Shown: in pieces, positions 19,597 to 34,473 of the stretch | How the letters are laid out: every line of letters begins with the position of its first letter | How positions within the stretch are numbered: position 1 is the stretch's first letter | Source of the DNA: Spirochaetota bacterium | GTDB taxonomy: Bacteria > Spirochaetota > Spirochaetia > DTKZ01 | Length of the DNA stretch: 34,473 nucleotides | Assembly: GCA_026418195.1 (NCBI GenBank) | Contig: JAOABU010000001.1 | Location: 1-34,473 of the forward strand | Direction of reading: 5' to 3' | Notes under the pieces: generated by a model | What the model saw: only the letters and a program-made list of their open reading frames with translations | The model's database searches: none | What the model was told of the DNA's origin: nothing | Made by a program: the position numbers and the translations under genes

Positions 19597-19625
19597 ATTA
19601 TATTTCTTACACCTTCCTTTGTCAA
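19597..19625 (-). promoter_or_regulatory. Perfect-consensus sigma-70 promoter for flaA
   Basis: Minus strand TTGACA (19620-19625), 17 bases, TATAAT (19597-19602): both hexamers and the spacing are ideal. The -35 lies 7 bases past the stop of the lipoprotein gene. A sigma-70 rather than sigma-28 promoter agrees with what is known of spirochaete sheath genes. Confidence 0.92.
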
Positions 19626-19631
19626 ATAGAA

Positions 19632-20486
19632 TCACGGAGAGAATATCCTGTATGGAAGGCGGGATGGAATAGAGCTGCCCGTGGTTAAAACTTGTAAAAG
19701 AGCCCACGCATAATCTTTATGCAGGCTCACTACAAAGGGATACTCCTGAATTCTAGGGAATCGATGGACTTCCAAGCCAATGATTCCTTCGATCTTTCTG
19801 TTTTCGAGTCCCGAAAGGATCTCCAAAGCGACCGAACCGGCTCTTCCTGCCCAGAGTATAAGGAGATCTGCAGGTTCCGCTAATTCCTTTCGAAGGGTCT
19901 TTCGTAAGGGTTCATCCGCCTCACCTTTCGGTACGAGTACTATTCGTGCTTCGGCTAACAGCTCTTCAAAACCCAACCCCTGAAACAAAGAAAGAGACTC
20001 TTTTGTGAGGATTAGTAATTTTTTATCCTTCCCCGATCGCGAAGATTTGTACTGTGCCCAGCGTTTTAGAGCCTCCTGTAGAGCAGGAACAGGATCGAAA
20101 GTGATTTTCCTCACATTGGCAGGGAAGGGAAACTCTTCTGGGGCGTCTAAGCATAGAAAGGTTTTATCAGGAAACCTAACTTCTAAGGCTTGGAGTTCTA
20201 TCGCCACATAGGGACTTACCACCACGAAAGAGTAACCCCCTTCACTTAACAATTTTTCCAACCCGGATCGATCGTTCTCGCGAAAGGCATAGGGAATCGT
20301 CCTGATGCGATATCCCGACACTCGTTCTATTTCGGCCAATCGCTGGGGAAACTCCTCCCCCAGAATGGGAGGCATGAATGAATCCACTACCCACAGCACC
20401 TGAGGAGTGGAACAGGATAGGAGACCCATCCAAAGGAGTATCCCTCCTATCCCTTGCAAACAGGAAAGTTTACCTAGTCCCCTCAA
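19632..20486 (-). CDS. Lipoprotein, periplasmic-binding-protein-like, family not identified
   Basis: 284 residues starting at a TTG that overlaps the stop of the upstream SDR gene (TTGA). The N-terminal hydrophobic stretch ends in LLSC, a good lipobox with Cys25. The rest alternates strands and helices like a type 1 periplasmic binding protein or Bmp-type lipoprotein (VLWVVDSFMPPILG, SFVVVSPYVAIELQALEVRFPDKTFLCLDAP, KKLLILTKESLSLFQGLGFEELL, DLLILWAGRAGSVALEIL), but I cannot assign the family. It is last in the sugar operon by overlap, so it may be a receptor for that pathway. Equally it may belong functionally with flaA, whose promoter follows directly. No other start would keep the signal peptide. 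Confidence 0.7.
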   Translation of the reverse strand: MRGLGKLSCLQGIGGILLWMGLLSCSTPQVLWVVDSFMPPILGEEFPQRLAEIERVSGYRIRTIPYAFRENDRSGLEKLLSEGGYSFVVVSPYVAIELQALEVRFPDKTFLCLDAPEEFPFPANVRKITFDPVPALQEALKRWAQYKSSRSGKDKKLLILTKESLSLFQGLGFEELLAEARIVLVPKGEADEPLRKTLRKELAEPADLLILWAGRAGSVALEILSGLENRKIEGIIGLEVHRFPRIQEYPFVVSLHKDYAWALLQVLTTGSSIPSRLPYRIFSP

Positions 20487-21235
20487 TCCCGTAGGGTTCC
20501 TCCATTCACCATCATACTCTCCCCTGTGATAAACTTCGCTCGGGGGCTAGCTAGATAGGAAGCAGCAAAAGCTACATCCTCAGGGTCTCCTAGTCTTTTC
20601 AGGATGCTATTATCGATGAACTTTTGATTCTCCTCTTTAGAAACAGCCGTTGCCATAGCTGTGACGATCCTTCCGGGGCATATAGCATTCGCTGTGATAT
20701 TGTCCATTCCTACTTGCTGAGCCAGATTTCGCGTAAACGCCAGAACCCCCCCCTTGGAAGCTGCATAATGACACGCAGCTACCGTTCCACCATGCTTTCC
20801 TGCTTCTGAGCTGATATTGATGATGCGACCATACTTCTGCTTACGCATTCCCGGTAGAACCGCCTTACAGAAATAGAACATGGCTCGGAGGTTAACTGCC
20901 ATAACTAGATCCCATTCATCCGATGTGATCTCCTCGATCTTATGTAAGGGGTGGATCCCTGCATTGTTCACCAGTATCTGAATACTCCCAAAGGTTCGTT
21001 CTACCTCTGCTACAAAGGTATTCACCTCTCCTTCCTTTGCAATATCTACTACTTTATGGAACACCTTCACACCTGTCTTCTGTTGAATTTCCTTTGCCGT
21101 TTTCTCTAACTCTTCCTTCTGTACATCGCACAGTGCTACATTTGCTCCTAGGGTCGCAAACTCCAGAGCGATGGCCTTGCCTATTCCTCGGGCAGAACCT
21201 GTAACAATAGCGCTTTGACCCTTCAAAGAATCCAT
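20483..21235 (-). CDS. Short-chain dehydrogenase/reductase (FabG/KduD-like), SDR-A
   Basis: Classical SDR oxidoreductase of 250 residues using NAD(P). The cofactor motif is TGSARGIG (12-19), and D37 after the second strand (LCDVQ) suggests NAD preference. NNAG is at 90-93. Catalytic residues are S143 (INISSEAG), Y157 and K161 (YAASK). The C-terminus has the usual ITGESMMVNGG. The frame is open to 21262, but the ATG at 21235 has GAGGAG seven bases ahead. It lies 23 bases after the ketose 3-epimerase-like gene and overlaps the lipoprotein gene by 4. It probably interconverts a hydroxyl and a keto group on the sugar or sugar acid handled by this operon. Substrate unknown. Confidence 0.87.
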   Translation of the reverse strand: MDSLKGQSAIVTGSARGIGKAIALEFATLGANVALCDVQKEELEKTAKEIQQKTGVKVFHKVVDIAKEGEVNTFVAEVERTFGSIQILVNNAGIHPLHKIEEITSDEWDLVMAVNLRAMFYFCKAVLPGMRKQKYGRIINISSEAGKHGGTVAACHYAASKGGVLAFTRNLAQQVGMDNITANAICPGRIVTAMATAVSKEENQKFIDNSILKRLGDPEDVAFAASYLASPRAKFITGESMMVNGGTLRD

Positions 21236-21258
21236 ACTGTTTCTCCTCCCCCTATGTA

Positions 21259-22074
21259 TCAATCTTTTGGTCTCAATAATGGAGCCAAGATTTCCATGGC
21301 TACTCCCACATCCTCAGCAAAACCTTTTTTTAGATTCCCTTCAATGGCTAATTTCCCCTTGTATCCGCACGCATCGAGAATTCCGATAATATGCTTGAAA
21401 TCGAGGGCCCCATGTCCGGGGAAATACCGATTGTTTTCTGATAAATGGAAACTGATGAAATGCCCCCGATGGGTAACGATGGCAGCTTCCATGTTAGCTT
21501 CCTCAATGTTCATATGCCAGGTATCAGGCAGTATATACGTATATCCCCTGTTTGCACCTTTTACCAGTGACCAGGTATCGTCCAGACTATTGCCGATTGG
21601 AGATTCAAACCGGTTGATGGCTTCCACTAGAAAAGGAGTTTGCAACTTGGCTGCTTCTTCCGAAACCTCCTCGATCGATCGTTTTAGAGCCTCTCGATGA
21701 GCATCGGACGTCTCGCCTGAAGCACCTTTGAGGAATCCTGCAATGATCCCTGCACCGAACTGTCTAGCAAAGGCAAGGAAATCTTTGGCCCGTTGAACGG
21801 ATACAGACCGTTTCTTCTCATCAGTAGAAGCCAAGGACAATCCTTCGGTCTTCGCTGTGAAACCTGTTGCAAACATGGATAGCTCAAGATCGAAATCTTC
21901 TAGAAAGGATCTTAAATCCTTTGGATCTAGGGCATCCGGGTTGCGAATGTTCAATTCCACCCCATCGAAGCCAAAACTCTGAAGAACTTTCATACGTTGG
22001 ATAAAATCCTTATCTTCCCGGTATCTATCGGGTAATAAGGTTTGCAAAGCGAGATAGTATCGATATCTTCCCAT
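21259..22074 (-). CDS. Ketose 3-epimerase-like TIM-barrel protein (D-tagatose 3-epimerase family)
   Basis: Xylose-isomerase-like (AP endonuclease 2) TIM barrel of 271 residues. The metal tetrad of the D-tagatose/D-psicose 3-epimerases is matched in order and spacing: E151 (FLVEAINRFES), D184 (LPDTWH), H210 (ISFHLSE) and E245 (LAIEGN). The substrate-phasing residues E157, H187 and R216 (NNRYFPGHG) are also present. The family inverts C3 of free ketoses with Mn2+ or Co2+; some relatives are hydroxypyruvate or 2-keto-acid isomerases, so the substrate remains open. AAGGAG lies eight bases before the ATG. It sits between the URO-D-like gene (16-base gap) and SDR-A. Confidence 0.8.
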   Translation of the reverse strand: MGRYRYYLALQTLLPDRYREDKDFIQRMKVLQSFGFDGVELNIRNPDALDPKDLRSFLEDFDLELSMFATGFTAKTEGLSLASTDEKKRSVSVQRAKDFLAFARQFGAGIIAGFLKGASGETSDAHREALKRSIEEVSEEAAKLQTPFLVEAINRFESPIGNSLDDTWSLVKGANRGYTYILPDTWHMNIEEANMEAAIVTHRGHFISFHLSENNRYFPGHGALDFKHIIGILDACGYKGKLAIEGNLKKGFAEDVGVAMEILAPLLRPKD

Positions 22075-22090
22075 CCTTCTTGCTCCTTTG

Positions 22091-23167
22091 CTACATGTCC
22101 AGAATGGTGCGCAACGTCTCCACTTCCTTCCAATTGGTCACCATGATATAGAGATACAACCCTCTTGGGTCTAGAGTGTCCCTCAACCTGCGTAGTTCAT
22201 CGGAAGAAAAAGATCCCCGAATCACCAGCGGTTTCCCTGCCTCTTGAACTTGTTGAAAGTAGGGAATCAACCAATTTAGGGGCGGACCGCCCACGTCGTT
22301 ATTGATCTCATAACAACGAATCTCGGGAATCTGCAACATCTTGTCTAATACAAACATACTGGTAGCATGGAGATGAATGAAACTACAGGAAAACTGAGAT
22401 GCTACCCGTTGATCCACTGGCTTCAAGTAATGCTCGTACAAGGTAGGAGATAAAACGGCCACCCCATCTTCCTGCATTCGAATGATGGACCCCGGAGCCC
22501 AGAGGCTATACTGAGCATCGAAGTATCCCCCATAGAAAAGGGGAATCCGTTTCCAGGCTTCCTGAGTAATCCAGATGAAAAAATCTCCCATCCGTTCCAG
22601 TAACCTGTACGCCCGCTCTCCTTCCATCATCAAATCGATTACTGCTTGCTCGTGGCCTCTTAAATTGATTACGTAATCAAAGGGTCCTGTGAGAGTGCCA
22701 TGAGACACCGGAAACCTTCCTGCAGCGTGTTTCACTAGCACTTCTATGAACTCCATGTACTTCTGATACCAGGGGGATTCCCGACTCCATTCCTTAGCCT
22801 CTGCTTCCTCCCAGGAGAGATTCTGTTCCTCTGCCACTACGTTTCCTGGTAAGACCCGCATGGAACTCCCTAGGATTCCCTCTCCCCAGAATACCGCCTG
22901 GGAAGGAGAAGCTCCCCGAAGGATATCATCCTCCATCTGTTCTCCTTCGGAAAGGAGCCGCTCCTGATCCTCTAAAAACTCTTCGGGTTTGATCATATCA
23001 GGGGTAAGGGGGGCGTCCTTCTTCCAGGAAGCGCTAGCTTTGAACTCATCTAAGGGAAACCAACTCTTAAAAGAAAATCCTACCAAAGGCCGTTTCATGG
23101 GTTCACGAGACCAGAACTTTCGATACCCTTCGATCTTTTTTGGGTCATTCCCAAAAGCGTACCCCAT
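22091..23167 (-). CDS. Uroporphyrinogen-decarboxylase-superfamily protein of unknown function
   Basis: 358-residue protein that looks like a URO-D/methylcobamide:CoM methyltransferase barrel: GTLTGPFDYVINLRGHEQAVIDLMMEGERAYRLLERMGDFF, a 'DGVAVLSPTLYEHYLKP' helix-entry stretch, and HLHATSMFVLDKMLQIP followed by EINNDVGGPP. It begins as cytoplasmic, without signal or membrane segments. No heme pathway genes and no corrinoid protein are nearby, so it is unlikely to be HemE. Relatives occur in carbohydrate gene clusters with unassigned roles. GGGGGGAG directly precedes the ATG, 9 bases after SDR-B. The superfamily call comes from pattern and length and is less certain than its neighbours. Confidence 0.6.
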   Translation of the reverse strand: MGYAFGNDPKKIEGYRKFWSREPMKRPLVGFSFKSWFPLDEFKASASWKKDAPLTPDMIKPEEFLEDQERLLSEGEQMEDDILRGASPSQAVFWGEGILGSSMRVLPGNVVAEEQNLSWEEAEAKEWSRESPWYQKYMEFIEVLVKHAAGRFPVSHGTLTGPFDYVINLRGHEQAVIDLMMEGERAYRLLERMGDFFIWITQEAWKRIPLFYGGYFDAQYSLWAPGSIIRMQEDGVAVLSPTLYEHYLKPVDQRVASQFSCSFIHLHATSMFVLDKMLQIPEIRCYEINNDVGGPPLNWLIPYFQQVQEAGKPLVIRGSFSSDELRRLRDTLDPRGLYLYIMVTNWKEVETLRTILDM

Positions 23168-23176
23168 TCTCCCCCC

Positions 23177-23998
23177 TTAATCCATCTCGAACCCGCCATC
23201 TACATTCAACGTTTGCCCTGTAATATAATCCGACTCTGAAGAGCAGAGGAACAGTGCCGCAGCTGCCATATCCTCTACTGTTCCAGGACGCTTCAAGGGA
23301 ATCCTAGAAATGAACTCTTCGCTCGCTTTCTGAGCATCCACCCCAAATGCTTTCTGTTTCAACCGATTGTTTTCGTCCCACATGGGTGTGAGGACCACAC
23401 TAGGAGCTATGGCATTCACATTGATGTTATAGGGTGCAAACGCCAATGCAGCAGACTGGGTGATGCTGATTACCGCAGCTTTGCTAGCTGCGTAGGCTAG
23501 TTGGTAGGCTCGTCCCCTCCGACCTGAGATGGAGGTAAAATTGACGATCTTCCCGTAGGACCTTTCTGCCTTCCCGGCCCGCTTCACTTCTTCGGGAATC
23601 TGCTGGATCATGGCCCGAGCTACGGCTTGGACCGCAAAGGCTGTACCCTTCTGATTGATATCGATTACGCGGTCCCACTCCTCCTCCGTTACATCGAGGA
23701 AATTATTGCTCTGCACCACCCCAGCGGTATTTACGAAGACATGCAACGCTCCAAAATCCTTTAGAATTTGATCTACCACCTGTTGAATCTCTTTGGGTTG
23801 GGAAATATTCAACCGATAGGCTCTCACCTCTGATCCATTCTGTCTCAATTGATCAATCAATTCCGTTAATAGGTGCTCCTGAATATCCGCCAACGCTAAT
23901 TTGGCACCTTCCCGAGCAAAGCGAAGGGAAATCCCCCTTCCTATTCCCGAGGCAGCTCCCGCAATGAAAGCTACTTTTCCTTCTAACTGTTTACCCAT
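23177..23998 (-). CDS. Short-chain dehydrogenase/reductase (sugar or polyol type), SDR-B
   Basis: NAD(P)-dependent SDR of 273 residues. The glycine motif is AGAASGIG (13-20), and D38 after the second strand (LADIQ) suggests NAD. The NNAG motif appears as NTAG (90-93). Catalytic residues are S156, Y169 and K173 (YAASK). An extra segment of about 14 residues (132-147, QIPEEVKRAGKAERS) lies between the dimer helix and the catalytic Ser strand. The start at 23998 overlaps the UxaE-like stop by 8 bases and has GGGGG seven bases ahead; longer in-frame starts to 24037 would lie inside the upstream gene. It resembles polyol and mannonate/gluconate-type SDRs, but the substrate is not known. Confidence 0.86.
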   Translation of the reverse strand: MGKQLEGKVAFIAGAASGIGRGISLRFAREGAKLALADIQEHLLTELIDQLRQNGSEVRAYRLNISQPKEIQQVVDQILKDFGALHVFVNTAGVVQSNNFLDVTEEEWDRVIDINQKGTAFAVQAVARAMIQQIPEEVKRAGKAERSYGKIVNFTSISGRRGRAYQLAYAASKAAVISITQSAALAFAPYNINVNAIAPSVVLTPMWDENNRLKQKAFGVDAQKASEEFISRIPLKRPGTVEDMAAAALFLCSSESDYITGQTLNVDGGFEMD

Positions 23999-25748
23999 CG
24001 ATGTACCCCCATCCATACAAGTCCTCCGCAATTTCAAGAAACCAACTCTTAAGCCGTTTCGTATATTCTTTTTTACATTCGGGAGAGATATCGTAGAGTC
24101 TATCTCGAAGTACGAACCGATTCTGTGAATCCCGTCTTCCTACTGAAACAAAGCAATAATAATGGAAAAGTTTTTTCGCTGGATGCGGAGTAGGATCCTT
24201 TGCTAATTCCTCCAAACATTCCTTTGCGAAACTGGATCCTTTTTTAGCCTCCCCCTCCACAAAGGAATGCACATCCTGCCACCATTCTAGAAATCGCTCC
24301 CGTTGTACTTCGTATAGGGTTTCTGCAAAGATCAACTGAAGCATGGGAGAAATTTTAAAATTGATCCTTCCCCGGGTAGCTTTCCCAAAGACTTTACGGG
24401 TTTCCTTGGAAAGATCGTCGCCGGAATGGCAGTCCAGCATCAGGTTGTAGAGGGCGGCGATTTCCGAGATCACCCGCACGCGGTTTTCCAATCCACCAAG
24501 TCCATCGGGACAACGATAGTCGGTGCTCTTTTCCACCCCAAAGTTCGGTGCTAAGTGTGTGACGGGTAGTGCTCTCCGTTCGATCTCTACTGCAAGGAAA
24601 ACAACTTCCTCTGGTCGGGTTATACAGTTGCAAGTAGCAACCTCAGGGGGATTCTCATCGATGGAAAGTTCCAAATCGAAGGGGTGTTCTCCCTTCAAAG
24701 ATTTCAAGTGATCGCACAATTGCTCTAAGGCAGTTAAGGCTTTCCAGTATTTCCCGACCAGTCTACCGATCTCCTCTTCGGAGAAAGAATACTGTCTCCC
24801 CCCAATCGTCCTCCGCCTACCGTGATAGAGCAAAATGTCTCTTCGTTCTGCCTCGTTGGGAATCAACTGGGATAGGTATTCCTTACCCAATCCACTGGAT
24901 GATTCTAACAGAGCTGTATACCCAAGAATATCCGATACATCAATCGTAAAGAAAGTGTAGTACCTCGCCGCTCGGATCACCTTCTTGGCTCTGTCCAGTC
25001 CTGCGGGACCTCGTTTCACCTGGATGTGATCTGCATCCGCTCCATACTTTGGGAAACTTGGATCCTTCAGGATGGACAGGATTCCCGCATGCAGAAGTCC
25101 CTCAAACGTACTTCCCGTATGTCCTTCAGCGATGGTACCGAAACTAAACAGGTAGTTCTCATTAGGAGCCTTTCCTTCCTTTAGGTCATCCAGCAGATTC
25201 AGCTCCCGTAGGGAGTTCTGGATCGCATTAGCCGCGAATCTGCCCTGCTCCATCGCTTGGATAGCTGCTGGCCAGACGAACACCGTATGCCGATCTCCTA
25301 TACCCAAGCGAGGGGTAGATCCTAATGCTCGAGGGGCTTTTTCAGGATTCAATTCCTGTAAATAGGTAACCAGCACTTCCATGTCAGTAGGATAGAGAGC
25401 CAGAGTCTGTCCTTCTGCAAGGGGTTTCGTGGCCATGGGATAGCCTAGTTTGGAAGTACTTCGTATGGGTCCAATCCGGACGAAGAGATCCTGTCCATCC
25501 GGGAGAGAGGCTAGGAATACATCCGCACCCTGATCCGGAGCATGGGAAGATGGATATACCGTAAGATGTTTCCCTATAACGGGTGGTTCCTGATTCTTCC
25601 CAGCGATGCCTTGCACTCGGTTCCAGAATCGATCCTCCTCCTGGAACACGAGGGATACAGCAGAATCCCGATCCCACGTAGTTGTATCTAGCACCGCTGG
25701 ATTCCGAGCAGGATCCAATTGTAGTTTGCCAAATGAAAAGATACCCAT
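23991..25748 (-). CDS. UxaE-family protein (tagaturonate/fructuronate epimerase-like)
   Basis: 585 residues, no signal peptide. The middle and C-terminal parts fit the UxaE (tagaturonate epimerase) family: TIAEGHTGSTFEGLL and ADADHIQVKRG, then YTFFTIDVSDILGY, FDLELSIDENPPEVA, a THLAPNFGVEKSTDYRC segment and LMLDCHSGDDLSKETRKVFG. UxaE of Thermotoga interconverts tagaturonate and fructuronate by C4 epimerisation. The conserved D/H/E-rich stretches suggest a metal-dependent active site. It seems longer than the UxaE proteins I recall, so the substrate may differ. AGGAGG lies just before the ATG, nine bases after the LarA-like gene. Confidence 0.72.
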   Translation of the reverse strand: MGIFSFGKLQLDPARNPAVLDTTTWDRDSAVSLVFQEEDRFWNRVQGIAGKNQEPPVIGKHLTVYPSSHAPDQGADVFLASLPDGQDLFVRIGPIRSTSKLGYPMATKPLAEGQTLALYPTDMEVLVTYLQELNPEKAPRALGSTPRLGIGDRHTVFVWPAAIQAMEQGRFAANAIQNSLRELNLLDDLKEGKAPNENYLFSFGTIAEGHTGSTFEGLLHAGILSILKDPSFPKYGADADHIQVKRGPAGLDRAKKVIRAARYYTFFTIDVSDILGYTALLESSSGLGKEYLSQLIPNEAERRDILLYHGRRRTIGGRQYSFSEEEIGRLVGKYWKALTALEQLCDHLKSLKGEHPFDLELSIDENPPEVATCNCITRPEEVVFLAVEIERRALPVTHLAPNFGVEKSTDYRCPDGLGGLENRVRVISEIAALYNLMLDCHSGDDLSKETRKVFGKATRGRINFKISPMLQLIFAETLYEVQRERFLEWWQDVHSFVEGEAKKGSSFAKECLEELAKDPTPHPAKKLFHYYCFVSVGRRDSQNRFVLRDRLYDISPECKKEYTKRLKSWFLEIAEDLYGWGYIDG

Positions 25749-25757
25749 GTCTCCTCC

Positions 25758-27035
25758 TCATGGTTCATAGTATGGGATCGTTAAGGGCCCCTCAAGCAGT
25801 ACGCAAATCTTTATCGCCGGGCCTTGTTCCCGTATCATTTCCTCTACCAGCGTTTCGATGGAAGGGCAGTATTCCAGATGACACTGGCGTATAGTTACTT
25901 CCGACAAGTAGGTAGAGTAGACAAAAATTCGAGCTTTTTTTACCAGAAGTGCCAGGATCTGGGCTTGCCATTGATCATCCATTCTGAATCCTTCAGAACG
26001 GATACGCTTTAATAATTCATCCGGGTTTTTCGCCTCTCGTAGAAGACGCCCAAAGGATCCATGCTCAGGAACTCCATCCCAGCATTCTGCGGCAACTACG
26101 ATGGTACCCCCTGGTTTCGTAATTTTAGCGGCGGCACTCATCCCCTTTACCGCCTGGTATAGGTTCAAATCTAGAGGGTAGCCTGCATTAGAAGTGATCA
26201 CCAGATCATACAAGGTGTCCGTTCTTACCATAGCCGTTCTTCGAACAAAATTGACTCCTTCCCTGTAGGCTTGGATCCAATCCCCTGCAAAGGAAGCAGT
26301 AATTTGTTTGTCCTTGTTCAACGTCACATTCACCAGAAAATTGGGCTTTGCCAGGGAGGCTGCTTCGTCGATTTCCTCTCTGAGGGGGTTCCCTTCCAGC
26401 ATTCCCCAGTTTGCACCGGGGTGATCGATATTCTGGGCATCGTGATTCCGCATCACCGTGTCCAGATGGGCCATTCCAGGCATCACAGCTTTTCCCCCTC
26501 CAGAAAATCCGGCAAAGAAGTGGGGTTCAATGAACCCGGTGAGGATCTTGAAGGAGCAATGAAGAAACTCCCTATGAATCTTCACGATGGTTCCTCTACG
26601 AGTCTTTCCTACTACTTCATGCTGATCCAAAGCTCGAGCATCGTTCTGCACGATTCGATAGGTTCGGACAATATTCTGTCCCAGCATCGAAACCAGTTCT
26701 TCCTCTGTGTTCAACCGATGCGTTCCTGTAGAATTGAATAAAGTGATCCGATGAGAAGGTACTCCCGCAAGTTCCAGTTCCTTCAAGATGGATGGAATCA
26801 GAATATGGTTAGGAGTAGGTCTGGTAATGTCACTGAATACAATACCGACCGAATCGCGGGGTTTCACGAGATGTCGAAGGGGTTTTGTTCCTACAGGATT
26901 TCTTAGAGACTCGGTTACCGTCTCAACGGGATCTTTCACGGCCGTTACATAGATGGGTTCGATCACTTTGATAGGGATATCGTCCCTAAGCTCGACAGGT
27001 AACCCCTTTTTCCCATAGGCTAAACGTACAACCAT
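25758..27035 (-). CDS. LarA-family nickel-pincer-nucleotide-dependent racemase/epimerase
   Basis: LarA enzymes invert 2-hydroxy acids by hydride transfer using a nickel-pincer cofactor bound to a Lys. All key residues of Lactobacillus LarA (D72, R75, H108, H174, K184, H200, Q295, K298) are matched here with nearly the same numbers: D69, R72 (SDITRPTP), H106 (GTHRLNTEEE), H172, K182 (PHFFAGFSGGGK), H198 (TVMRNH), Q294 and K297 (NLYQAVKG). The enzyme should therefore be active. 425 residues is normal for the family. Known homologues act on lactate, malate and aldonate-like acids; in this sugar operon an aldonate or related hydroxy acid is most likely (inference). No larB, larC or larE is in the window. 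AGGAG lies eight bases before the ATG. Confidence 0.85.
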   Translation of the reverse strand: MVVRLAYGKKGLPVELRDDIPIKVIEPIYVTAVKDPVETVTESLRNPVGTKPLRHLVKPRDSVGIVFSDITRPTPNHILIPSILKELELAGVPSHRITLFNSTGTHRLNTEEELVSMLGQNIVRTYRIVQNDARALDQHEVVGKTRRGTIVKIHREFLHCSFKILTGFIEPHFFAGFSGGGKAVMPGMAHLDTVMRNHDAQNIDHPGANWGMLEGNPLREEIDEAASLAKPNFLVNVTLNKDKQITASFAGDWIQAYREGVNFVRRTAMVRTDTLYDLVITSNAGYPLDLNLYQAVKGMSAAAKITKPGGTIVVAAECWDGVPEHGSFGRLLREAKNPDELLKRIRSEGFRMDDQWQAQILALLVKKARIFVYSTYLSEVTIRQCHLEYCPSIETLVEEMIREQGPAIKICVLLEGPLTIPYYEP

Positions 27036-27062
27036 CCCTCTCTCTCCTTGTTCTTCGTTCTC

Positions 27063-28784
27063 TTACTCTTTCACTAACCTTAGCATCCGTTCCCGTACCA
27101 TCTGGCTCATCTCTTGGTACATGCCAATAAATTGAGTCAACGTTTCCTGTACGGGTTTCCATGCCGCTACAGCCTCTGTATCCCTCTTCTCCAGAGTAAG
27201 TACCCTCTCAGGTTTGCCCATCGAACCATTTTCAGGCACCCACCAAGCTTGCCGGAAGATCTCACTATTTAAAAGTAACTCTATGTCTTTGTCGGGAGTC
27301 TTCCCATGTAGAGCATCGATTACCAAGGGCCTCGGATGGGCGTCGTACGCTCTGCGGACATTAGGAAAGATGGTGATGAGGGGGATCCCCCAGAGTTCGG
27401 AAATATCGGGGATCCAGTCATCGTAGATCCGTAAAGAAGCGATCATGATCTTCACCTTTGCAGGATCTACCCCTAATCCTCCTTTTTCCCGAGCGGAATA
27501 GAGCCTATACGCTGCTTTCCGGGCTACTTCTACTCCAGCCCAACGAGCTGCCTCTATCCCTCCCGCGACACCTTTCGCTTTTAGCTCATCCCGTACCGGA
27601 AAGGCTAACCTTCCATTCATGATAGCAATATAGGAAACCAGGGCATTTCCTCCCTGTAAGACCTCGGCAAAGGGAATGCACTGAAATAGACTAAACGTTA
27701 GGGTCACCGTTACCCCAATTCCCTTAGAGGTGAGCTTTTTAGCCGCTTCCAACCCTGCCGCTGTGGAAGGCACCTTAATCACCACATTGGGTACCCCCCC
27801 TAGTCGCTTCTCCAACTCTTTATAGATGAACACTGCTTCTTTCACCATTCTCTCACTATCCGAGTGAGCCTTAGGATTCACCTGCAGACTCACGTAGCCC
27901 TGTTTCCCTTCGCTCCAAAGAAAAATAGGACGCAACAATCGACAATTTTTTTCGACCACAGATGTAGTAACCAATGCATTGATCCGTTCAATCGCATCGG
28001 ATAGATCTTCCTTCGAACCTTCCACAAGGGATGCAAGTTTTTTCTTCGAATAGCTACCACAGATTACCTGATCAACCCGTTGGTTCCAGTAGGAGGGATT
28101 GATGTCCCATGCAAGCTTGATCAGCACAGGATTGGTGGTAGCGAAGGTTCCTCCAATCCGGATCATGGAATCTAAAAAATCTGCATAATCGTTTCCTATT
28201 TCAGTGTGGAGACTCCCCCCTAAAGAGGATCTAGCCGCACTGCGAAGGTTTGATTTACTGGACTCATGAACGAGATTTTCGATATATTCCCGGATCCTCT
28301 TTCCCCATAGGGCATCTACCATCCGGGATAATTCCCCCTCGTCAGAGATTCCCTCAGCCTTCAACCGGGCACGGATGGTTTTCTTGATTTCTTCTGAAAA
28401 TACAGTAGCCTCTTCCGGAAAAGCATCCATGAGGGTTTCAAGGGATTGAAGAGCTCGTTGCGCAGAGGATTGTATCCCTTCTTCTCCCAGGATTGAAAGG
28501 AGTTTCCGCTCTGCAGGGAACGTACGAAGATCTAAAACAAGGTTCAAGAGGAATCGGAACAAGACTATCCGATCGACTTCATCACTCTTCAGAGCCTTCC
28601 CCATATACTTTTTCTCTAGATAGTCAAACCGTTTTCTAAAGAGTTCACTGGTAGAAAAGTATAGAAGGGTTCCCCGCACTCTCTCCTCTTGTCCATGAAC
28701 AAGGGAGTTCCATAGTTCTTCCAATTTTGCTTTCTCCCAATACTTTTTCTCCTCCAAAATTCGTTCCCTAAGGTTCACTTTCAT
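27063..28784 (-). CDS. Transaldolase-family protein with a long N-terminal helical extension
   Basis: 573 residues, far longer than the usual 220-380. Residues about 190-520 form a transaldolase barrel: FLDSMIRIGGTFATTNPVLIK at its start, then ITALVTTS-like INALVTTSVVEKNC, YVSLQVNPKAH, the Schiff-base Lys in NVVIKVPSTAAGLEA, GIGVTVTLTFSLFQC, and KVKIMIASLRIYDDW. The first 180 or so residues are charged and helical (ERILEEKKYWEKAKLEELW...) and match nothing I recognise. A transaldolase transfers dihydroxyacetone units between sugar phosphates, linking with the split transketolase in this operon. AAGGAG lies six bases before the ATG. The extension may be regulatory or part of an oligomer interface. 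Confidence 0.82.
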   Translation of the reverse strand: MKVNLRERILEEKKYWEKAKLEELWNSLVHGQEERVRGTLLYFSTSELFRKRFDYLEKKYMGKALKSDEVDRIVLFRFLLNLVLDLRTFPAERKLLSILGEEGIQSSAQRALQSLETLMDAFPEEATVFSEEIKKTIRARLKAEGISDEGELSRMVDALWGKRIREYIENLVHESSKSNLRSAARSSLGGSLHTEIGNDYADFLDSMIRIGGTFATTNPVLIKLAWDINPSYWNQRVDQVICGSYSKKKLASLVEGSKEDLSDAIERINALVTTSVVEKNCRLLRPIFLWSEGKQGYVSLQVNPKAHSDSERMVKEAVFIYKELEKRLGGVPNVVIKVPSTAAGLEAAKKLTSKGIGVTVTLTFSLFQCIPFAEVLQGGNALVSYIAIMNGRLAFPVRDELKAKGVAGGIEAARWAGVEVARKAAYRLYSAREKGGLGVDPAKVKIMIASLRIYDDWIPDISELWGIPLITIFPNVRRAYDAHPRPLVIDALHGKTPDKDIELLLNSEIFRQAWWVPENGSMGKPERVLTLEKRDTEAVAAWKPVQETLTQFIGMYQEMSQMVRERMLRLVKE

Positions 28785-28795
28785 AGGATTCTCCT

Positions 28796-29470
28796 TTATT
28801 CATGAATAAATCCTTCCAGCTTCAGTACCGCATCCCGGGATGCCAGGATATGGGCAGACATGACTTGTTCAATCCTTTCTTCATCCTGTGAAAGAAGAGC
28901 ATGGATAATGGCAATATGTTCTTCGTTTGTGGATTCGATCCGTTTGGGGAGCCTTCCTGCAAGAATCCGCATCCGTTGGTTTTGATCCATCACCACGCGG
29001 TACATCTCGATCAGATGTTTATTTTGGGTACACTCCACGATATAATCGTGCAGGTCCCGATCGTACTGGAACCAATCTTTGAATGAAATGCTTCCTATAT
29101 CCATGGTGGTGAATAGGTGAAGGAAGCGGTTTAATACATCTCGATCCATCCTTCGACTAGAAATCCGAGCAATTCTTGGTTCCAATAGGAGGCGGATCTG
29201 GTAGACTTCGTAGATATCCTGCAAGGAGATGGAAGAAACGAACGTACCCTGTCTGGGATAGATATCGATGAGATGTTCCCGTTGGAGTCTAAGCAAAGCT
29301 TCCCGAATGGGGGTTCGGGAAGTTCCAAACTCCGAAGCTAACATATCCTCAGAGACGACCGATCCTGGAAGCATTTCACAGGTAATGATCCGTTCTTTAA
29401 TTCTGCGATATACTTGTTCCTGGAGTGCTTCCTTCTTCATGGTTGGCGTTCTGATCGGCGTTCCCATCAT
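28796..29470 (-). CDS. GntR-family transcriptional regulator, FCD subfamily
   Basis: Dimeric DNA-binding regulator of about 224 residues. The winged helix lies at about 14-75: EQVYRRIKERIITCEMLPGS, LASEFGTSRTPIREALLRLQ (recognition helix) and LIDIYPRQGTFVS. The C-terminal FCD ligand domain keeps the metal pattern Asp-x3-His (DRDLHDY) with later His in STNEEHIAII and MSAHI. FCD members usually sense a pathway carboxylate or sugar acid. The start overlaps the stop of the zinc dehydrogenase (ATGA) with AAAGGA adjacent; the longer open frame to 29536 is unlikely. It is the fourth gene of the sugar operon and probably controls it through the palindrome at 32397-32413. Confidence 0.9.
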   Translation of the reverse strand: MMGTPIRTPTMKKEALQEQVYRRIKERIITCEMLPGSVVSEDMLASEFGTSRTPIREALLRLQREHLIDIYPRQGTFVSSISLQDIYEVYQIRLLLEPRIARISSRRMDRDVLNRFLHLFTTMDIGSISFKDWFQYDRDLHDYIVECTQNKHLIEMYRVVMDQNQRMRILAGRLPKRIESTNEEHIAIIHALLSQDEERIEQVMSAHILASRDAVLKLEGFIHE

Positions 29471-30504
29471 TCCTTTGGATCTAGTACGATCTTCAATCCC
29501 TTCTTTGTTTCGAATAGATCGAAGGCCTTCTTCCATTCACCAAGGGGGAGGATATCGGAAACGAGGGGCTTCAACTGTACCTGTCCCTGTTCCACCATTT
29601 GTAATGCCCGTTCCCAGGAAGTCCATCGGGACCCGAGGGATCCGGTAACTTTCAACTCTTTATAGCAAATTCTCTCGAAGTCTAAGGTTATGGGTTTCCC
29701 GAATAGTCCAATCTGAGTCAACTGACCCCGTTTCCGTACGGAAAGAAGAGCGTCCTGGAGGGCTTTTTCACTTCCTGAGCACTCCAATACGATGTCTACC
29801 CCTACTCCTTGGGTGATTTCTTCGACCACTTCTCCCAGACTTTGTTTTGTCACATCTAGGGTCCAATCCGCACCAAGAAGTTTCGCTTTCTCCAATCTTT
29901 CCGCATCTACTGGAGTACCCGTTATGAGCACCCGCGCTCCATGCGCTTTTGCCACCTGTAGGGTAGCTAAACCGATGGCCCCTGGACCCGAGACTAAAAC
30001 CGTATCCCCCGCTTGGATATGGGTGAGTTCTACAACAGCATGAACGATACAAGCTAGAGGTTCCATCAGAGCTCCCTCTAGGAAGGAGATGGAGTCTGGT
30101 AACGGATGAAGGCGAGCAGCAGGAACGATCGTATATGGAGCGAAGGCTCCATTGTACCAGTAACCGAGAGTTTTCCTTTGATTACAGAGGTTGTAAAAAC
30201 CTTCTCTGCAATGGATACATACACCGCAGTACGAATAAGCGGTTTCTGAAACAACCCGATCCCCAGGCTGCCAGTGTTCCACTCCAAGCCCTACCTCTAC
30301 GATTGTCCCACTGAACTCATGTCCGGTCACAACAGGAGGACGGACAGGAATAGCTATATCACTATGATAGATATGGAGATCCGAACCGCAGATCCCTGTG
30401 TACTGTACGGCTATCTTCACTTCACCCGCACCTGGTTTTGGTTCAGGAATCTCTTGCAGTTCCATGTTCCCGGGTCCAGCCGCATACTTCACTAATCCTT
30501 TCAT
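29467..30504 (-). CDS. Zinc-dependent polyol-type medium-chain dehydrogenase
   Basis: NAD(P)-dependent dehydrogenase of 345 residues. Catalytic zinc ligands are C39 and H62 with E63 (TGHEFSG); the structural zinc is held by C93, C96, C99 and C107. The cofactor motif is VSGPGAIGLATLQVAKAHGA. The VVSETAYSYCGVC...YNLCNQRKTLGY...NGAFAPY pattern is that of polyol and arabitol-phosphate dehydrogenases. It probably oxidises a polyol or polyol phosphate to a ketose before the transketolase step; this is inference. Its start overlaps the transketolase C-subunit stop (ATGA) with AGGAG seven bases ahead, and its stop overlaps the GntR gene. Confidence 0.87.
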   Translation of the reverse strand: MKGLVKYAAGPGNMELQEIPEPKPGAGEVKIAVQYTGICGSDLHIYHSDIAIPVRPPVVTGHEFSGTIVEVGLGVEHWQPGDRVVSETAYSYCGVCIHCREGFYNLCNQRKTLGYWYNGAFAPYTIVPAARLHPLPDSISFLEGALMEPLACIVHAVVELTHIQAGDTVLVSGPGAIGLATLQVAKAHGARVLITGTPVDAERLEKAKLLGADWTLDVTKQSLGEVVEEITQGVGVDIVLECSGSEKALQDALLSVRKRGQLTQIGLFGKPITLDFERICYKELKVTGSLGSRWTSWERALQMVEQGQVQLKPLVSDILPLGEWKKAFDLFETKKGLKIVLDPKE

Positions 30505-31460
30505 GCTCTGGCTCCTTTCTTTTTCAAAACCTCCTCCGCAGCCTTCACGATATGCTGGGAAGTTAACCCATACTTTTCTAATAAAGACTGGTAATCCCCT
30601 GATTCGGCAAAGGTGTCCCGTACTCCCACAAACTCGATCGGCACTGGATAAAGCCGTCCTATCGCTTCAGCTACCGCTCCTCCTAACCCTCCATGGATGG
30701 AATGTTCTTCCGCCACAACAATTCCTCCGGTCTCCTTCGCACATGTTTGTAGGAGCTCTGCATCGAGGGGTTTAATGGTATGGATGTTTACCACTCGGGC
30801 CGAAACCCCCTTCGTTTGAAGTTTCGTGGCTGCTTCCATCGCTCGATGTACCATATAACCCGTAGCTACCAGAGTAATATCTTTCCCATCTCTAAGAACT
30901 TTTCCTTTCCCTAATACAAAAGGTTGGTTGTCATTTTCCGGAATGTCCGGGCATTCGTTTCGGTGGATTCTTAGGTACACAGGGCCTTTATATTGAACTG
31001 CAATCTCAGTTGCTGCTTTCATGTCAGCAGCATCAGCAGGGCAGATCACGACCATGTTGGGAAGAGCCCGCATGAAGGCGATATCCAAAATGGAATGATG
31101 ACTTGCACCATCATAAGAGTCGGAGAGCCCTGCATAAGTCCCTGCTAGTTTTACATTGAGCTTTGTATAAGCTACGAGACTTCGAATAGGATCTCCACAG
31201 CGGAGAACCATGAAACAGGCAAAGGTGTTCACGAAAGGGATCATGCCAGTAGTAGAAATACCAGCTGCCATGGCCGCCATGTTCATTTCAGCTATTCCTA
31301 CATCGAAGAATCGGTCAGGATACGCTTCTCCAAATAGGATGGTTCGGGTAGAGTTGGCCACGTCCGCATCGAACACCACGATATTGGGGTTACTCTTTCC
31401 TAATTCGACGAGAGTTTCGCCGTATACTTGCCTCATAGCCTTGCCTGCTATTCCTGCCAT
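30501..31460 (-). CDS. Transketolase, C-terminal subunit
   Basis: Second half of a split transketolase, 319 residues: pyrimidine-binding and C-terminal domains. The catalytic Glu that activates thiamine diphosphate lies in FFDVGIAEMNMAAMAAG. Other family stretches are MVLRCGDPIRSLVAYTKLNVKLAG, ASHHSILDIAFMRALPNM and VVICPADAADM. The C-terminal domain includes TLVATGYMVHRAMEAA and VVAEEHSIHGGLGGAVAEAI. The start overlaps the N-subunit stop by one base (TAATG), so the two should be made in equal amounts and assemble as a heterotetramer. Split transketolases in catabolic operons include apulose-4-phosphate and sulfo-sugar enzymes, so the acceptor may not be a normal pentose phosphate. Confidence 0.92.
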   Translation of the reverse strand: MAGIAGKAMRQVYGETLVELGKSNPNIVVFDADVANSTRTILFGEAYPDRFFDVGIAEMNMAAMAAGISTTGMIPFVNTFACFMVLRCGDPIRSLVAYTKLNVKLAGTYAGLSDSYDGASHHSILDIAFMRALPNMVVICPADAADMKAATEIAVQYKGPVYLRIHRNECPDIPENDNQPFVLGKGKVLRDGKDITLVATGYMVHRAMEAATKLQTKGVSARVVNIHTIKPLDAELLQTCAKETGGIVVAEEHSIHGGLGGAVAEAIGRLYPVPIEFVGVRDTFAESGDYQSLLEKYGLTSQHIVKAAEEVLKKKGARA

Positions 31461-32293
31461 TACCTTCCCCCTTCCAATTCTTGGATCGCTGCCTCGTATT
31501 CAGCCTTGCTGATAGGTTTACCGTGCCATGCATGCTTCCCTTCCATGAAGGATACTCCCTTCCCTTTGACGGTGTGAGCAATGATGATTGTCGGTTTCCC
31601 TTTTAGGCGATGGGCTTCTTGAATGGAATCGTAGATTTCTTCCACCTTGTGCCCATTCACTTCGAGGGTATTCCAGCCAAAAGAGTTCCATTTGGCTTTC
31701 ACATCACCGAGGGGCATGATCTGATCTACGGGTCCATCGAGTTGCACTCCATTCTTATCCAGAATAGCTACTACATTATCTATCCCATATTTGGCCCCTG
31801 CCATCGCAGCTTCCCACACGATTCCTTCCTGAATCTCTCCATCTCCGAGCAGAACATAGGTATAGAACTGTTTCCCTTGAATTTTCGCCCCTAAACCCAT
31901 CCCGAGGGCTGCGGAAAGACCTAAACCCAACGGACCTGTAGAGGGTTCTACCCCAGGGGTTTTCAAGGCGCATGGGTGACCTTGCAGTCTACTATTGAGC
32001 TGTCTCAAGGTCTTCAGTTCCTCCTTGGGAAAGAAACCCTTTTCTGCCAACGCTATGTAGAGCATAGGAGCCGCATGTCCCTTGGCAAGAACGAACCTAT
32101 CCCTGTCTTCCCACGTTGGATTCTTAGGATCTACCTTCATTACTTCGAAGTATAGGGTAGTGATGATTTCAGTAGCGGAAAGAGATCCGCCTGGATGTCC
32201 GGTTTGCACAGAATAGAGAGTGTCGAGGAGAGTTCTACGGAATTGTTTGCAGAGTCCCTCCAGGACGGCTTTCCGTTCCTTGGTTAATCCCAT
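31460..32293 (-). CDS. Transketolase, N-terminal (thiamine-diphosphate-binding) subunit
   Basis: First half of a split transketolase, about 277 residues. It starts KAVLEGLCKQFRRTLLDTLYSVQTGHPGGSLSATEI, with the conserved GHPGGSLS and the active-site His in LAKGHAAPML. The thiamine-diphosphate motif GDGEIQEG is followed about 27 residues later by the Asn of LDKNG. The partner subunit starts one base into its stop codon. The frame is open to 32359 from a GTG, but AGGAGG lies five bases before the ATG at 32293, which also matches the family start. It is the first gene of the sugar operon, with a leader of about 100 bases. Confidence 0.92.
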   Translation of the reverse strand: MGLTKERKAVLEGLCKQFRRTLLDTLYSVQTGHPGGSLSATEIITTLYFEVMKVDPKNPTWEDRDRFVLAKGHAAPMLYIALAEKGFFPKEELKTLRQLNSRLQGHPCALKTPGVEPSTGPLGLGLSAALGMGLGAKIQGKQFYTYVLLGDGEIQEGIVWEAAMAGAKYGIDNVVAILDKNGVQLDGPVDQIMPLGDVKAKWNSFGWNTLEVNGHKVEEIYDSIQEAHRLKGKPTIIIAHTVKGKGVSFMEGKHAWHGKPISKAEYEAAIQELEGGR

Positions 32294-32376: not shown

Positions 32377-32390
32377 ATCTTGTATAAGAT
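32377..32390 (-). repeat. Second inverted repeat near the tkt-operon start site
   Basis: ATCTT-GTAT-AAGAT is a perfect 5-4-5 repeat at about +6 to +19 of the predicted transcript. Its centre is about 21.5 bases (two helical turns) from the centre of the main operator, so it could be a second, weaker binding site on the same DNA face. Confidence 0.45.
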
Positions 32391-32396
32391 AGATAT

Positions 32397-32413
32397 ATCA
32401 GATTCTATCTGAT
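32397..32413. promoter_or_regulatory. Operator candidate for the GntR/FCD regulator
   Basis: ATCAGAT-TCT-ATCTGAT is a perfect 7-3-7 inverted repeat. It contains the whole -10 box (TAGAAT on the minus strand) of the promoter ahead of the split transketolase genes. A dimer bound here would block RNA polymerase. The only DNA-binding protein encoded in the operon is the GntR/FCD regulator, hence the assignment, which is inferred. Confidence 0.75.
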
Positions 32414-32430
32414 GCTTCTATCCCTGTCAA
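32402..32430 (-). promoter_or_regulatory. Sigma-70 promoter of the sugar operon
   Basis: Minus strand TTGACA (32425-32430), 17 bases, TAGAAT (32402-32407). The -35 overlaps the stop codon of the upstream threonine-synthase-like gene. The predicted start is near 32395. Confidence 0.85.
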
Positions 32431-33659
32431 GGATGCTTGGACGAAAGAGCCTTCAGGGCAGATTCTACATCCTTTAATCCATTCCCCGTGAGAAGCACCA
32501 CAACGGGTTCCTCCTCCACTAGCTCCCTCTCTAGGGTTTCATGATAGGTAGAGGCTTTCGTCCCCAGTACATCTTTTAGATATCCTGCAAATGCGGCAGC
32601 CCCTGCTGGTTCTGAGAATAGTCCTGTCCAGCTGGCGAGTTTCTTCTGTGCCTCTAGTATCTCCCCATCCGAAACCAGAATTACTCGGCCATTGTATCGT
32701 TTAAGTTTTTCGATCGCTAAATACCCGTTTCGAGGTATTTCCACGGAGATAGAATCTGCTACGGTATGGGTTTGTATCCCTCCTTCGAAGGATCCCCTCT
32801 TGAAGGCTCGAGCAATGGCTGAAGAACCCTCGGCTTGCACCCCAACGATCTCTGGCATCTGTCCAATGATCCCAAGTCTCAGGAGATCCTCGAATCCTCG
32901 ATACACCCCTGCAAGGATCACTCCATCGCCAACAGATACGTACACCCGTTTGGGGGGCCCCCCCAAGTCCCGATAGATTTCCAACGCTACTGTTTTCTTC
33001 CCCTCGATGGTGAGGGGTTGCTGTGCGGTATTCCTGGAAAGAACCTCTCTATGGGATGAGCAGTACTCCAAGGAAGCATCGTACGCATCATCATAGGTTC
33101 CCTCTACCAAAGTTACATCTGCACCGTACAGAAGGGACTGAACTCGTTTGGCTATAGGAGCAGACTTGGGCATGAAGATCTGCACTTTCAATCCCGCCGC
33201 AGCCCCCACCCCGGCCATGGAGGAGGCTGCATTTCCCGTAGAAGCTACTGCAACAATGGAACGTCCCACCTTTTTGGCAAAAGCAGCCACTAGAAAGGAA
33301 GCTCTATCCTTCAACGAGCCGGTAGGATTCGCTCCATCATCCTTCAGATATAGCCCCTCTACTCCCAAACGTTTCCACAACCCAAAAGGTTTCCAGAGGG
33401 GAGTATTCCCAACCGGGATAGGAGGGAAAAACTCTCTCTCTACCGGAAGGAGGTCCAACACATCCCAGTGCCCTCCCTGTGCTTCGATACGTTGTCGAAG
33501 GGTCGGATAGTCCCAGCAGACTTCTAACACTCCACGAAGGGGTTCTTTCGGATCCTGCACTGCATGGCAGGAATGACATACGAGTATCTCAGGGGAAGGA
33601 TCGTACTCATTGCCACAGAGGTGACAACGATACCGAAAGAGGTTTTCTATTCTAACCAT
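32427..33659 (-). CDS. thrC: Threonine-synthase-like PLP-dependent lyase
   Basis: Fold-type II PLP enzyme of about 410 residues. The N-terminus carries a small zinc ribbon (C12, C15, C28, C31) seen in many threonine synthases. The Schiff-base Lys is K117 in GANPTGSLKDRAS. The phosphate-binding and following stretches are STGNAASSMAGVGAAAGL and YVSVGDGVILAGVYRGF, and the C-terminus has VLLTGNGLKD. The ATG at 33659 overlaps the upstream YgeY-like stop (ATGGTTAG). A longer frame to 33701 lacks a ribosome-binding site. Threonine synthase is the best match, but pairing with a YgeY-type hydrolase suggests a catabolic lyase of the same family, as with diaminopropionate ammonia-lyase YgeX. Confidence 0.82.
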   Translation of the reverse strand: MVRIENLFRYRCHLCGNEYDPSPEILVCHSCHAVQDPKEPLRGVLEVCWDYPTLRQRIEAQGGHWDVLDLLPVEREFFPPIPVGNTPLWKPFGLWKRLGVEGLYLKDDGANPTGSLKDRASFLVAAFAKKVGRSIVAVASTGNAASSMAGVGAAAGLKVQIFMPKSAPIAKRVQSLLYGADVTLVEGTYDDAYDASLEYCSSHREVLSRNTAQQPLTIEGKKTVALEIYRDLGGPPKRVYVSVGDGVILAGVYRGFEDLLRLGIIGQMPEIVGVQAEGSSAIARAFKRGSFEGGIQTHTVADSISVEIPRNGYLAIEKLKRYNGRVILVSDGEILEAQKKLASWTGLFSEPAGAAAFAGYLKDVLGTKASTYHETLERELVEEEPVVVLLTGNGLKDVESALKALSSKHP

Positions 33660-34473
33660 GGATTTGTTCCAATATATACGGAAGGTAGGCATAGAAGGCA
33701 CTAGCGATCTGTAGATCCTTTACCCGGGTAACTTCGTTGGGTGCATGGGCTTGAGCTTCGTCTCCCGGACCAAAACCTATGGTAGGAATCCGATACCGTC
33801 CGCATACCGCTGTTCCATTGGTGGAAAACGTCCATTTATCCACCACAGGCTCTGTATGAAAAAGTTCTCTATAGGTACGGATCCCCGCTTGCACAAGGGG
33901 ATGATCCAATGGGAGTTTCCAAGTGGGAAAGTATAGTTCCTGACCATAGGGAGTTTTCTTCCATCCAAGTTTATTGTAGTAGGGAACTACTACCTCCTCC
34001 GCAAGACCTTGCAACGCATCTTTCACTTGCTGCACTGCTAGTTCCTTAGTCTCGCCCCAGGTTAACCTCCGGTCGATATAGAGGGAAGCCAAATCAGGTA
34101 CAGCGCATTGGGAAGGCCCAAACGCCTTTAACTGGGATACTACGATGGTTCCCTTTCCAAGGAAGCGATCTTCATCAGGCTGCAATTCTTCGTTCAACTT
34201 TTCGAGTGCCAGAGCAGCTCGGGCTGCTTTGTAGGCTGCATTTACTCCTCGCTCGGGCGCCGATCCATGGGCGGAGATCCCTTTGATCTGGACCTCCATC
34301 TCCATCCTGCCCCGATGACCTCGATATAACCGACAACTTGTAGGTTCGGTACTGACAAAGTAATCGGGAACGAACTTTTCTTCCTCTATGAGGTACTTCC
34401 AGCACATTCCATCGCAATCCTCCTCAAGAACTGTAAAGGTAAAATACACGGAGTACTGACCTCGATACTCTAG
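33652..34473 (-). CDS. ygeY: YgeY-type M20 family metallohydrolase (N-terminus off the window)
   Basis: C-terminal 273 residues of an M20 peptidase/deacetylase-type zinc enzyme; the frame is open to the right edge, so the start is missing. The visible part begins in the catalytic domain just before VLEEDCDGMCWKYL, a stretch typical of YgeY. It continues FVSTEPTSCRLYRGHRGRMEMEVQIKGISAHGSAPERG, which includes a zinc-ligand Glu (STEP) and the dimerisation-domain His. The last ligand His lies in AQAHAPNEVT. YgeY proteins are found with selenium-linked and diaminopropionate genes and are thought to cleave an amide or carbamoyl bond; the substrate is not settled. The stop overlaps the PLP-enzyme start by 8 bases, so the two are coupled. 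Confidence 0.85.
   Translation of the reverse strand, partial: LEYRGQYSVYFTFTVLEEDCDGMCWKYLIEEEKFVPDYFVSTEPTSCRLYRGHRGRMEMEVQIKGISAHGSAPERGVNAAYKAARAALALEKLNEELQPDEDRFLGKGTIVVSQLKAFGPSQCAVPDLASLYIDRRLTWGETKELAVQQVKDALQGLAEEVVVPYYNKLGWKKTPYGQELYFPTWKLPLDHPLVQAGIRTYRELFHTEPVVDKWTFSTNGTAVCGRYRIPTIGFGPGDEAQAHAPNEVTRVKDLQIASAFYAYLPYILEQIHG

Follow-up and report, generated by a model that had tools for sequence, protein, structure and literature searches.

The window analysed here, a stretch of 34,473 nucleotides from a Spirochaetota bacterium, is contig C131 of the host assembly (3.13 Mb in 158 contigs, 98.6% complete); below, C-numbers denote contigs of this host genome (G000), whose content was checked by single targeted searches, and L-numbers denote the loci scanned for comparison. 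At positions 19632-32293 it carries twelve minus-strand genes with intact starts and stops, spaced −70 to +27 bases apart and mostly preceded by a Shine-Dalgarno-like sequence, which an earlier reading of the sequence (the initial annotation) had described as one operon. The boundaries drawn there hold: all of the open reading frames (ORFs) are present, the largest gap is 27 bases, and promoters stand at both limits. The features, in the direction of transcription, are as follows.

32402..32430, minus strand: sigma-70-like promoter TTGACA-N17-TAGAAT before tktN, 11 of 12 consensus matches.
32377..32390, no strand assigned: candidate operator palindrome ATCTTATACAAGAT, immediately after the −10 element; sole exact match in the host genome.
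31460..32293, minus strand: tktN, thiamine pyrophosphate-binding N subunit of a split transketolase (NCBIfam transketolase models; catalytic His/Asp residues kept).
30501..31460, minus strand: tktC, C subunit of the transketolase (NCBIfam transketolase models; Glu411, Phe434, His473, Arg358, Ser385 and Arg520 kept).
29467..30504, minus strand: zinc-dependent sugar-alcohol/aldonate-type dehydrogenase, Tdh/IolM/RspB-like (NCBIfam and Pfam, under the equivalog cut-offs).
28796..29536, minus strand: GntR/FCD regulator (PF00392 and PF07729).
27063..28784, minus strand: 573-aa transaldolase (PF00923, 109.7 bits), with an N-terminal helical extension (about residues 1-188) and a TIM barrel.
25758..27035, minus strand: LarA, predicted racemase of glycerate or small 2-hydroxyacids of the nickel-pincer nucleotide (NPN) type (NF033504, 481 bits, cut-off 460).
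23991..25748, minus strand: UxaE-clade protein (PF16257, 88.5 bits, cut-off 27.1), matching the UxaE structures 9kcs, 9lhw and 6ilb.
23177..24037, minus strand: short-chain dehydrogenase/reductase (SDR) B, which occurs in 22 related loci, mostly directly after the UxaE-clade gene.
22091..23167, minus strand: remote URO-D superfamily protein, without a direct hidden Markov model match; relatives about 30% identical reach PF01208.
21259..22074, minus strand: IolO-like TIM-barrel epimerase (IolO, NF041099, 166.7 bits; PF01261, 101 bits).
20483..21262, minus strand: SDR-A, FabG/gluconate-5-dehydrogenase-like (NCBIfam).
19632..20486, minus strand: lipoprotein, last gene of the operon, kept in L035 and L039.
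19597..19625, minus strand: promoter of the FlaA-like genes that follow, TTGACA-N17-TATAAT, agreeing with the consensus at all 12 positions.

A UxaE-clade alignment used to scan 84,980 genomes retrieved 55 loci. Of these, 50 belong to the clade, and adding the window and L005 gave the 52 that were analysed. Their neighbourhoods were called by tblastn; ORF calling gave spurious antisense ORFs in GC-rich loci. The 52 loci come from Spirochaetota, Planctomycetota, Verrucomicrobiota, Lentisphaerae/Kiritimatiellae, Chloroflexota and KSB3, with one metagenome-assembled genome labelled Accumulibacter. A long branch (0.79) splits 48 clade members from canonical UxaE, to which their mean identity is 22%. 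A transaldolase gene, either of the large type or like fructose-6-phosphate aldolase (FSA), lies within 1.5 kb at 29 of the 52 clade loci and at none of 26 ordinary UxaE loci of the same phylum (Fisher p about 2e-7, not corrected for kinship), and the pairing recurs in several phyla; within about 10 kb the number rises to 38 of 52. Beyond L034, L035 and L039 the gene set varies; transaldolase is the commonest partner of the clade, with SDR-B, LarA, dehydrogenases, TRAP transporters and split transketolase next in order. The FSA-like variant was found in Chloroflexota and Verrucomicrobiota loci, and related clusters do contain TRAP transporters, kinases and reductases. Among plasmid records the UxaE clade was absent, and the transaldolase query matched only distant transaldolases, one of them beside a thiamine-type dehydrogenase cluster.

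The operon transaldolase keeps the equivalents of Asp17, Asn35, Lys132 (the Schiff-base lysine) and Thr156 of Escherichia coli TalB, and the phosphate-site equivalents Arg181, Ser226 and Arg228 are also retained. At the position of TalB Glu96 it has Gln, as FsaA does, and position 178 is Met (Tyr in FSA). Its structure model (predicted local distance difference test, pLDDT, 87) is a transaldolase barrel that matches transaldolases, and the engineered TalB variants E96Q and E96Q/F178Y are among its structural neighbours. The protein falls far below the NCBIfam equivalog for housekeeping transaldolase (best score 75.9 bits against a cut-off of 367), and a housekeeping transaldolase is encoded on contig C126.

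In eight loci (L044, L047, L052, L053, L054, L067, L068 and L073; seven planctomycete and one, L044, opitutacean) the transaldolase gene is directly followed, at 12-112 bases, by a gene for GarR (488 bits, cut-off 397), the tartronate-semialdehyde reductase. GarR scored above its cut-off in 16 of 28 clade-carrying genomes and in 1 of 14 control genomes. The host has a GarR (412 bits, cut-off 341) on contig C26 and a glycerate-2-kinase-family gene. The C26 operon (L094:1-5968) consists of genes for GntR, a URO-D-like paralogue, split transketolase, GarR and TRAP components (DctQ and the start of DctM), with no transaldolase; this arrangement suggests that a transketolase may there cleave a keto-acid to tartronate semialdehyde.

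All equivalents of the NPN-binding and catalytic residues are kept in the operon LarA (D72, R75, H108, H174, K184, H200, Q295 and K298). The earlier label, LarA-like, named the right family and understated a close match (481 bits, cut-off 460). At the specificity positions the protein has F175, F176, W358 and Q359, with Q359 conserved in 14 of 14 orthologues. Lactate-type racemases carry F, F, W and E or Q at positions 175, 176, 358 and 359, gluconate 2-epimerases carry E, V, A and H, and in LarAH43, whose kcat/KM is greater for glycerate than for lactate, Gln359 has been tied to the glycerate preference (PMC11770544). The identification of this LarA as the gluconate 2-epimerase GntE is ruled out by F, F, W, Q in place of E, V, A, H. 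Given its small 2-hydroxyacid/glycerate signature, LarA more likely acts on a three-carbon product of the pathway. Three independent lines, namely the atom mapping of the transaldolase reaction set out below, the GarR neighbourhoods and the LarA signature, point to a three-carbon acid product. The LarA cofactor requires LarC, which acts in nickel cofactor assembly. LarA with an intact NPN site and no LarC found was seen in the host genome and in those of L034, L035, L036, L038, L054, L055, L058, L061, L067, L068, L073 and L081; of the LarA-carrying genomes checked, only the KSB3 genome of L046 has LarC. Contig C116 (L097:6565-12030) encodes a LarA paralogue together with a TRAP transporter and a protein resembling four-carbon acid sugar kinases; this LarA possibly acts in tetronate metabolism.

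The alignment of the operon transketolase showed Tyr at the position of His461 (E. coli numbering), the residue that orients the substrate phosphate, and the same replacement occurs in the transketolases of L034, L035, L043, L058, L061, L070 and L081. The split transketolases on host contigs C118 and C22 retain His461. The head-group motif of the operon enzyme reads RS-F-YR, which is neither RSFHR nor RAFDR; sulfofructose transketolase has Asp at the His461 position, in an altered RAFDR motif (PMC11659671). A full-length transketolase is encoded separately on contig C124. Apparent full-length transketolases at related loci proved on alignment to be E1-type 2-oxoacid dehydrogenases and were excluded as evidence. 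The host genome holds at least six split transketolases (C131, C26, C118, C9, C22 and C7), mostly beside transporters, SDRs or GntR regulators. On C7 (L120:243-7838), the genes for a TRAP transporter and for a split transketolase diverge from those for a 346-aa transaldolase, a cupin-like protein and GntR, with no recognised kinase; this is perhaps another transaldolase/transketolase cluster for a sugar acid.

The UxaE-clade enzyme is predicted to be a C4 epimerase converting tagaturonate to fructuronate. A tagaturonate reductase (530 bits, cut-off 359) is encoded in seven UxaE-clade loci, which supports keto-uronates as intermediates. The TIM-barrel epimerase, which the initial annotation had called ketose 3-epimerase-like, is closest to IolO, the 5-keto-L-gluconate epimerase; it scores under the equivalog cut-off of that family (166.7 against 300 bits) and is predicted to be a C3 epimerase of keto-uronates. 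Chloroflexota loci in which genes for UxaE, the FSA-like transaldolase and a gluconate-5-dehydrogenase-like SDR are consecutive agree with a first step in which a hexonate would be oxidised.

From the gene content, active-site residues and conserved neighbourhoods we infer every substrate and product of the following route. The zinc dehydrogenase and the SDRs would oxidise C5 of a hexonate, forming a keto-uronate (a 5-ketohexonate), and the IolO-like and UxaE-clade epimerases would correct C3 and C4, respectively (ketose numbering), to give D-fructuronate, whose C3 and C4 are configured as in D-fructose, the arrangement on which transaldolases act. The transaldolase would then move C1-C3 of fructuronate to glyceraldehyde-3-phosphate, producing fructose-6-phosphate and tartronate semialdehyde; by atom mapping, the latter would be C4-C6 of fructuronate with the carboxylate still attached. 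Glycerate would then arise by reduction of tartronate semialdehyde, with either GarR, where there is one, or an SDR as the enzyme. Fischer projections suggest that L-glycerate would be formed if the D-uronate C5 configuration survives cleavage and reduction. Known glycerate kinases use D-glycerate; LarA would racemise L- to D-glycerate, and glycerate kinase would follow. The split transketolase would rearrange sugar phosphates or, as in the bifurcated sulfoquinovose pathway, might itself take a two-carbon unit from the keto-acid. No sugar kinase would be needed for carbon to reach glycolysis, which it would enter as fructose-6-phosphate and phosphoglycerate. We assign a probability of about one half to the reading that the operon encodes such a kinase-free, transaldolase-dependent route, by which at least one hexonate or hexuronate is catabolised. 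A broader proposal, which we put forward tentatively and at distinctly less than even odds, is that an undescribed, kinase-free keto-uronate breakdown, the carboxylate equivalent of sulfoglycolysis, is widespread in at least five phyla, with a dedicated transaldolase, with or without split transketolase, yielding tartronate semialdehyde, and with a LarC-independent supply of NPN for a LarA glycerate racemase.

Several observations weigh against the transaldolase route. The counts of transaldolase-UxaE neighbourhoods lack phylogenetic independence, and there is no transaldolase at five clade loci with good flanks (L038, L043, L050, L055 and L079). GarR is encoded outside this operon, on contig C26, and HpaI-type aldolase and enolase-superfamily genes are present at L048, L053 and L054, where through them a known route, that of the glucarate type, could supply GarR. 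LarC (PF01969) was found neither in the host genome nor in 12 of the 13 others with this LarA; it was detected in 6 of 14 control genomes. The route offers no step for the URO-D-like protein or the lipoprotein. The host carries a canonical hexuronate operon (UxaC and a second UxaE) on contig C149, and D-galacturonate itself is therefore probably not the substrate; a hexonate is the more likely entry substrate. Glu96Gln is also found in FSA-type aldolases, so the operon transaldolase might release dihydroxyacetone instead. As an FSA-like aldolase it would split fructuronate or another ketose acid into dihydroxyacetone and tartronate semialdehyde with no phosphorylated acceptor, and both the Gln and the two TalB variants among the structural neighbours are consistent with this. 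We regard such an aldolase as quite unlikely, given that the three phosphate-site equivalents are kept, that position 178 is Met and not the Tyr of FSA, and that the operon has no dihydroxyacetone kinase.

The initial annotation had supposed that LarA, the UxaE-like protein and the ketose epimerase each invert one stereocentre of a rare sugar acid or polyol, and that the resulting ketose (phosphate) enters ordinary transketolase and transaldolase. The gene content of the operon suits this supposition; the IolO-like protein (C3), UxaE (C4) and LarA (C5, the carbon beside the carboxylate) would together cover all stereocentres of a keto-hexuronate, and at L058 and L081 each of the three epimerase types has a distant relative near transaldolase and UxaE. 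Sugar-acid chemistry as the theme of the operon is supported, as is the delivery of carbon to the two transferases. However, a common sugar for all three epimerases is not supported, given the glycerate/lactate-type pocket of LarA, and the transferases do not appear to be generic sinks: housekeeping copies of both exist elsewhere in the genome, the operon transketolase is altered, and the transaldolase travels with UxaE and GarR. Ordinary entry would also need a kinase, and the twelve genes include no kinase, aldolase or dehydratase, as had been noted from the start. We therefore consider the three-epimerase scheme unlikely. An equally doubtful variant gives the lead to the split transketolase, which would cut a six-carbon keto-acid to a four-carbon aldehyde acid and xylulose-5-phosphate, or a five-carbon 4-keto-pentonate to tartronate semialdehyde, with transaldolase as a minor branch. 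The change of His461 to Tyr parallels the altered motif of sulfofructose transketolase (PMC11659671), and contig C26 unites split transketolase, GarR and a TRAP transporter without transaldolase; on the other hand, transaldolase is the steadier partner of the UxaE clade, split transketolase being present at some loci only, and no SqwI-like isomerase was identified. Finally, the substrate could be a sulfonated or other non-uronate anionic sugar, handled by a relative of sulfoglycolysis with the same logic of transaldolase and split transketolase; Ldh2-family and aldehyde dehydrogenase genes at some loci fit this idea. It is very improbable in our estimate: no sulfoquinovosidase or sulfoquinovose isomerase was recognised among the twelve operon genes, to which that search was limited, GarR passes its own cut-off and falls under that of sulfolactaldehyde reductase, and tagaturonate reductase and UxaE indicate carboxylates.

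The predicted transaldolase route from hexonates would follow the logic of the sulfoquinovose transaldolase and transketolase pathways with a carboxylate replacing the sulfonate. Like the transaldolase, transketolase and bifurcated sulfoquinovose pathways (for example in Faecalicatena, PMC11659671), it would be kinase-free, with a ketose bearing an anionic C6 cut by transaldolase and/or split transketolase and glyceraldehyde-3-phosphate as acceptor, and the three-carbon fragment would retain its acid group and then be reduced or oxidised. It would differ in having hexonate dehydrogenases and two epimerases, one of the UxaE clade and one IolO-like, in place of sulfoquinovose isomerase, and in a fully usable three-carbon product, tartronate semialdehyde/glycerate; the catalytic Gln of the operon transaldolase is Glu in BmSF-TAL. 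Canonical UxaE hexuronate catabolism (Thermotoga type, represented here by C149) shares the UxaE family and tagaturonate/fructuronate, but there fructuronate is reduced, dehydrated and phosphorylated and 2-keto-3-deoxygluconate (KDG) phosphate is cleaved, and the operon lacks all of those genes. The Luteolibacter L-glucose/L-galactose pathway (PMC12632266) and the Thermotoga IolM/IolO inositol pathway share the sequence from hexonate through 5-keto-L-gluconate to D-tagaturonate, whereas they continue via altronate and KDG, for which the operon has no dehydratase, kinase or aldolase. The glucarate/galactarate pathway (GarL, GarR and glycerate kinase) shares the conversion of tartronate semialdehyde to glycerate; its tartronate semialdehyde comes from the HpaI/GarL aldolase, and a transaldolase is proposed here. 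LarAH43 of Enterocloster (PMC11770544) has the same F, F, W, Q and the full NPN site as the operon LarA, which differs in being encoded with transaldolase and UxaE in a host without detectable LarC. In the literature searched, with subscription journals thinly covered, no text linked transaldolase in this way to UxaE, to fructuronate or to tartronate semialdehyde, and no described pathway had this gene combination, as the initial annotation had stated. Plants and algae are rich in uronates and aldonates, for which the textbook routes finish with KDG phosphorylation and aldol cleavage. If correct, the proposed route would be a different entry of these compounds into glycolysis, via transaldolase and free of a sugar kinase; it would provide a function for a hitherto unassigned UxaE-like clade and for the odd transaldolases of several phyla, and would show what glycerate-type LarA racemases do in the cell. 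With no LarC found, the LarA cofactor poses a question of its own.

The order of the enzyme genes is kept in two related genomes at 82-96% identity. L034 has the same operon up to a contig end, where it is broken off after the epimerase gene; L035 has it complete, with a lipoprotein 65% identical; and L039 shows partial conservation, covering the 3' part. The tktN promoter is identical in sequence and position in L034 and L035. The palindrome ATCTTATACAAGAT is intact in L034 and has one half-site altered in L035, and because of this difference it is only tentatively proposed as an operator for the GntR/FCD regulator that the operon encodes. There is no second exact site in the host genome, and therefore no transporter can be linked to the operon through a shared operator. 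The perfect promoter between the lipoprotein gene and the FlaA-like gene indicates that the operon limits look right. For both SDRs an internal ATG has the stronger ribosome-binding site: at 24016 in SDR-B, where the alternative is a TTG, and at 21235 in SDR-A.

The URO-D-like protein of the window has no Pfam or NCBIfam match, and PF01208 gave none even at E values up to 10; the earlier label survives only as a remote assignment through the relatives about 30% identical. An attempt to judge function by fold was rejected (the structure model is poor, pLDDT 61, and its fold matches are meaningless). A paralogue lies beside split transketolase and GarR on C26, and superfamily relatives at L110 and L111, in distant genomes of the phylum, adjoin the same 589-aa uncharacterised protein. 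The lipoprotein had no Pfam or NCBIfam match. Upstream of the operon, threonine-synthase-like and YgeY-family genes (window 32427-34449) keep their order in L034 and L035 and are set apart from tktN by the promoter. Separate from the operon, an RspB/PRK10083-like zinc dehydrogenase gene lies beside an ABC importer gene set at window positions 8226-11707.

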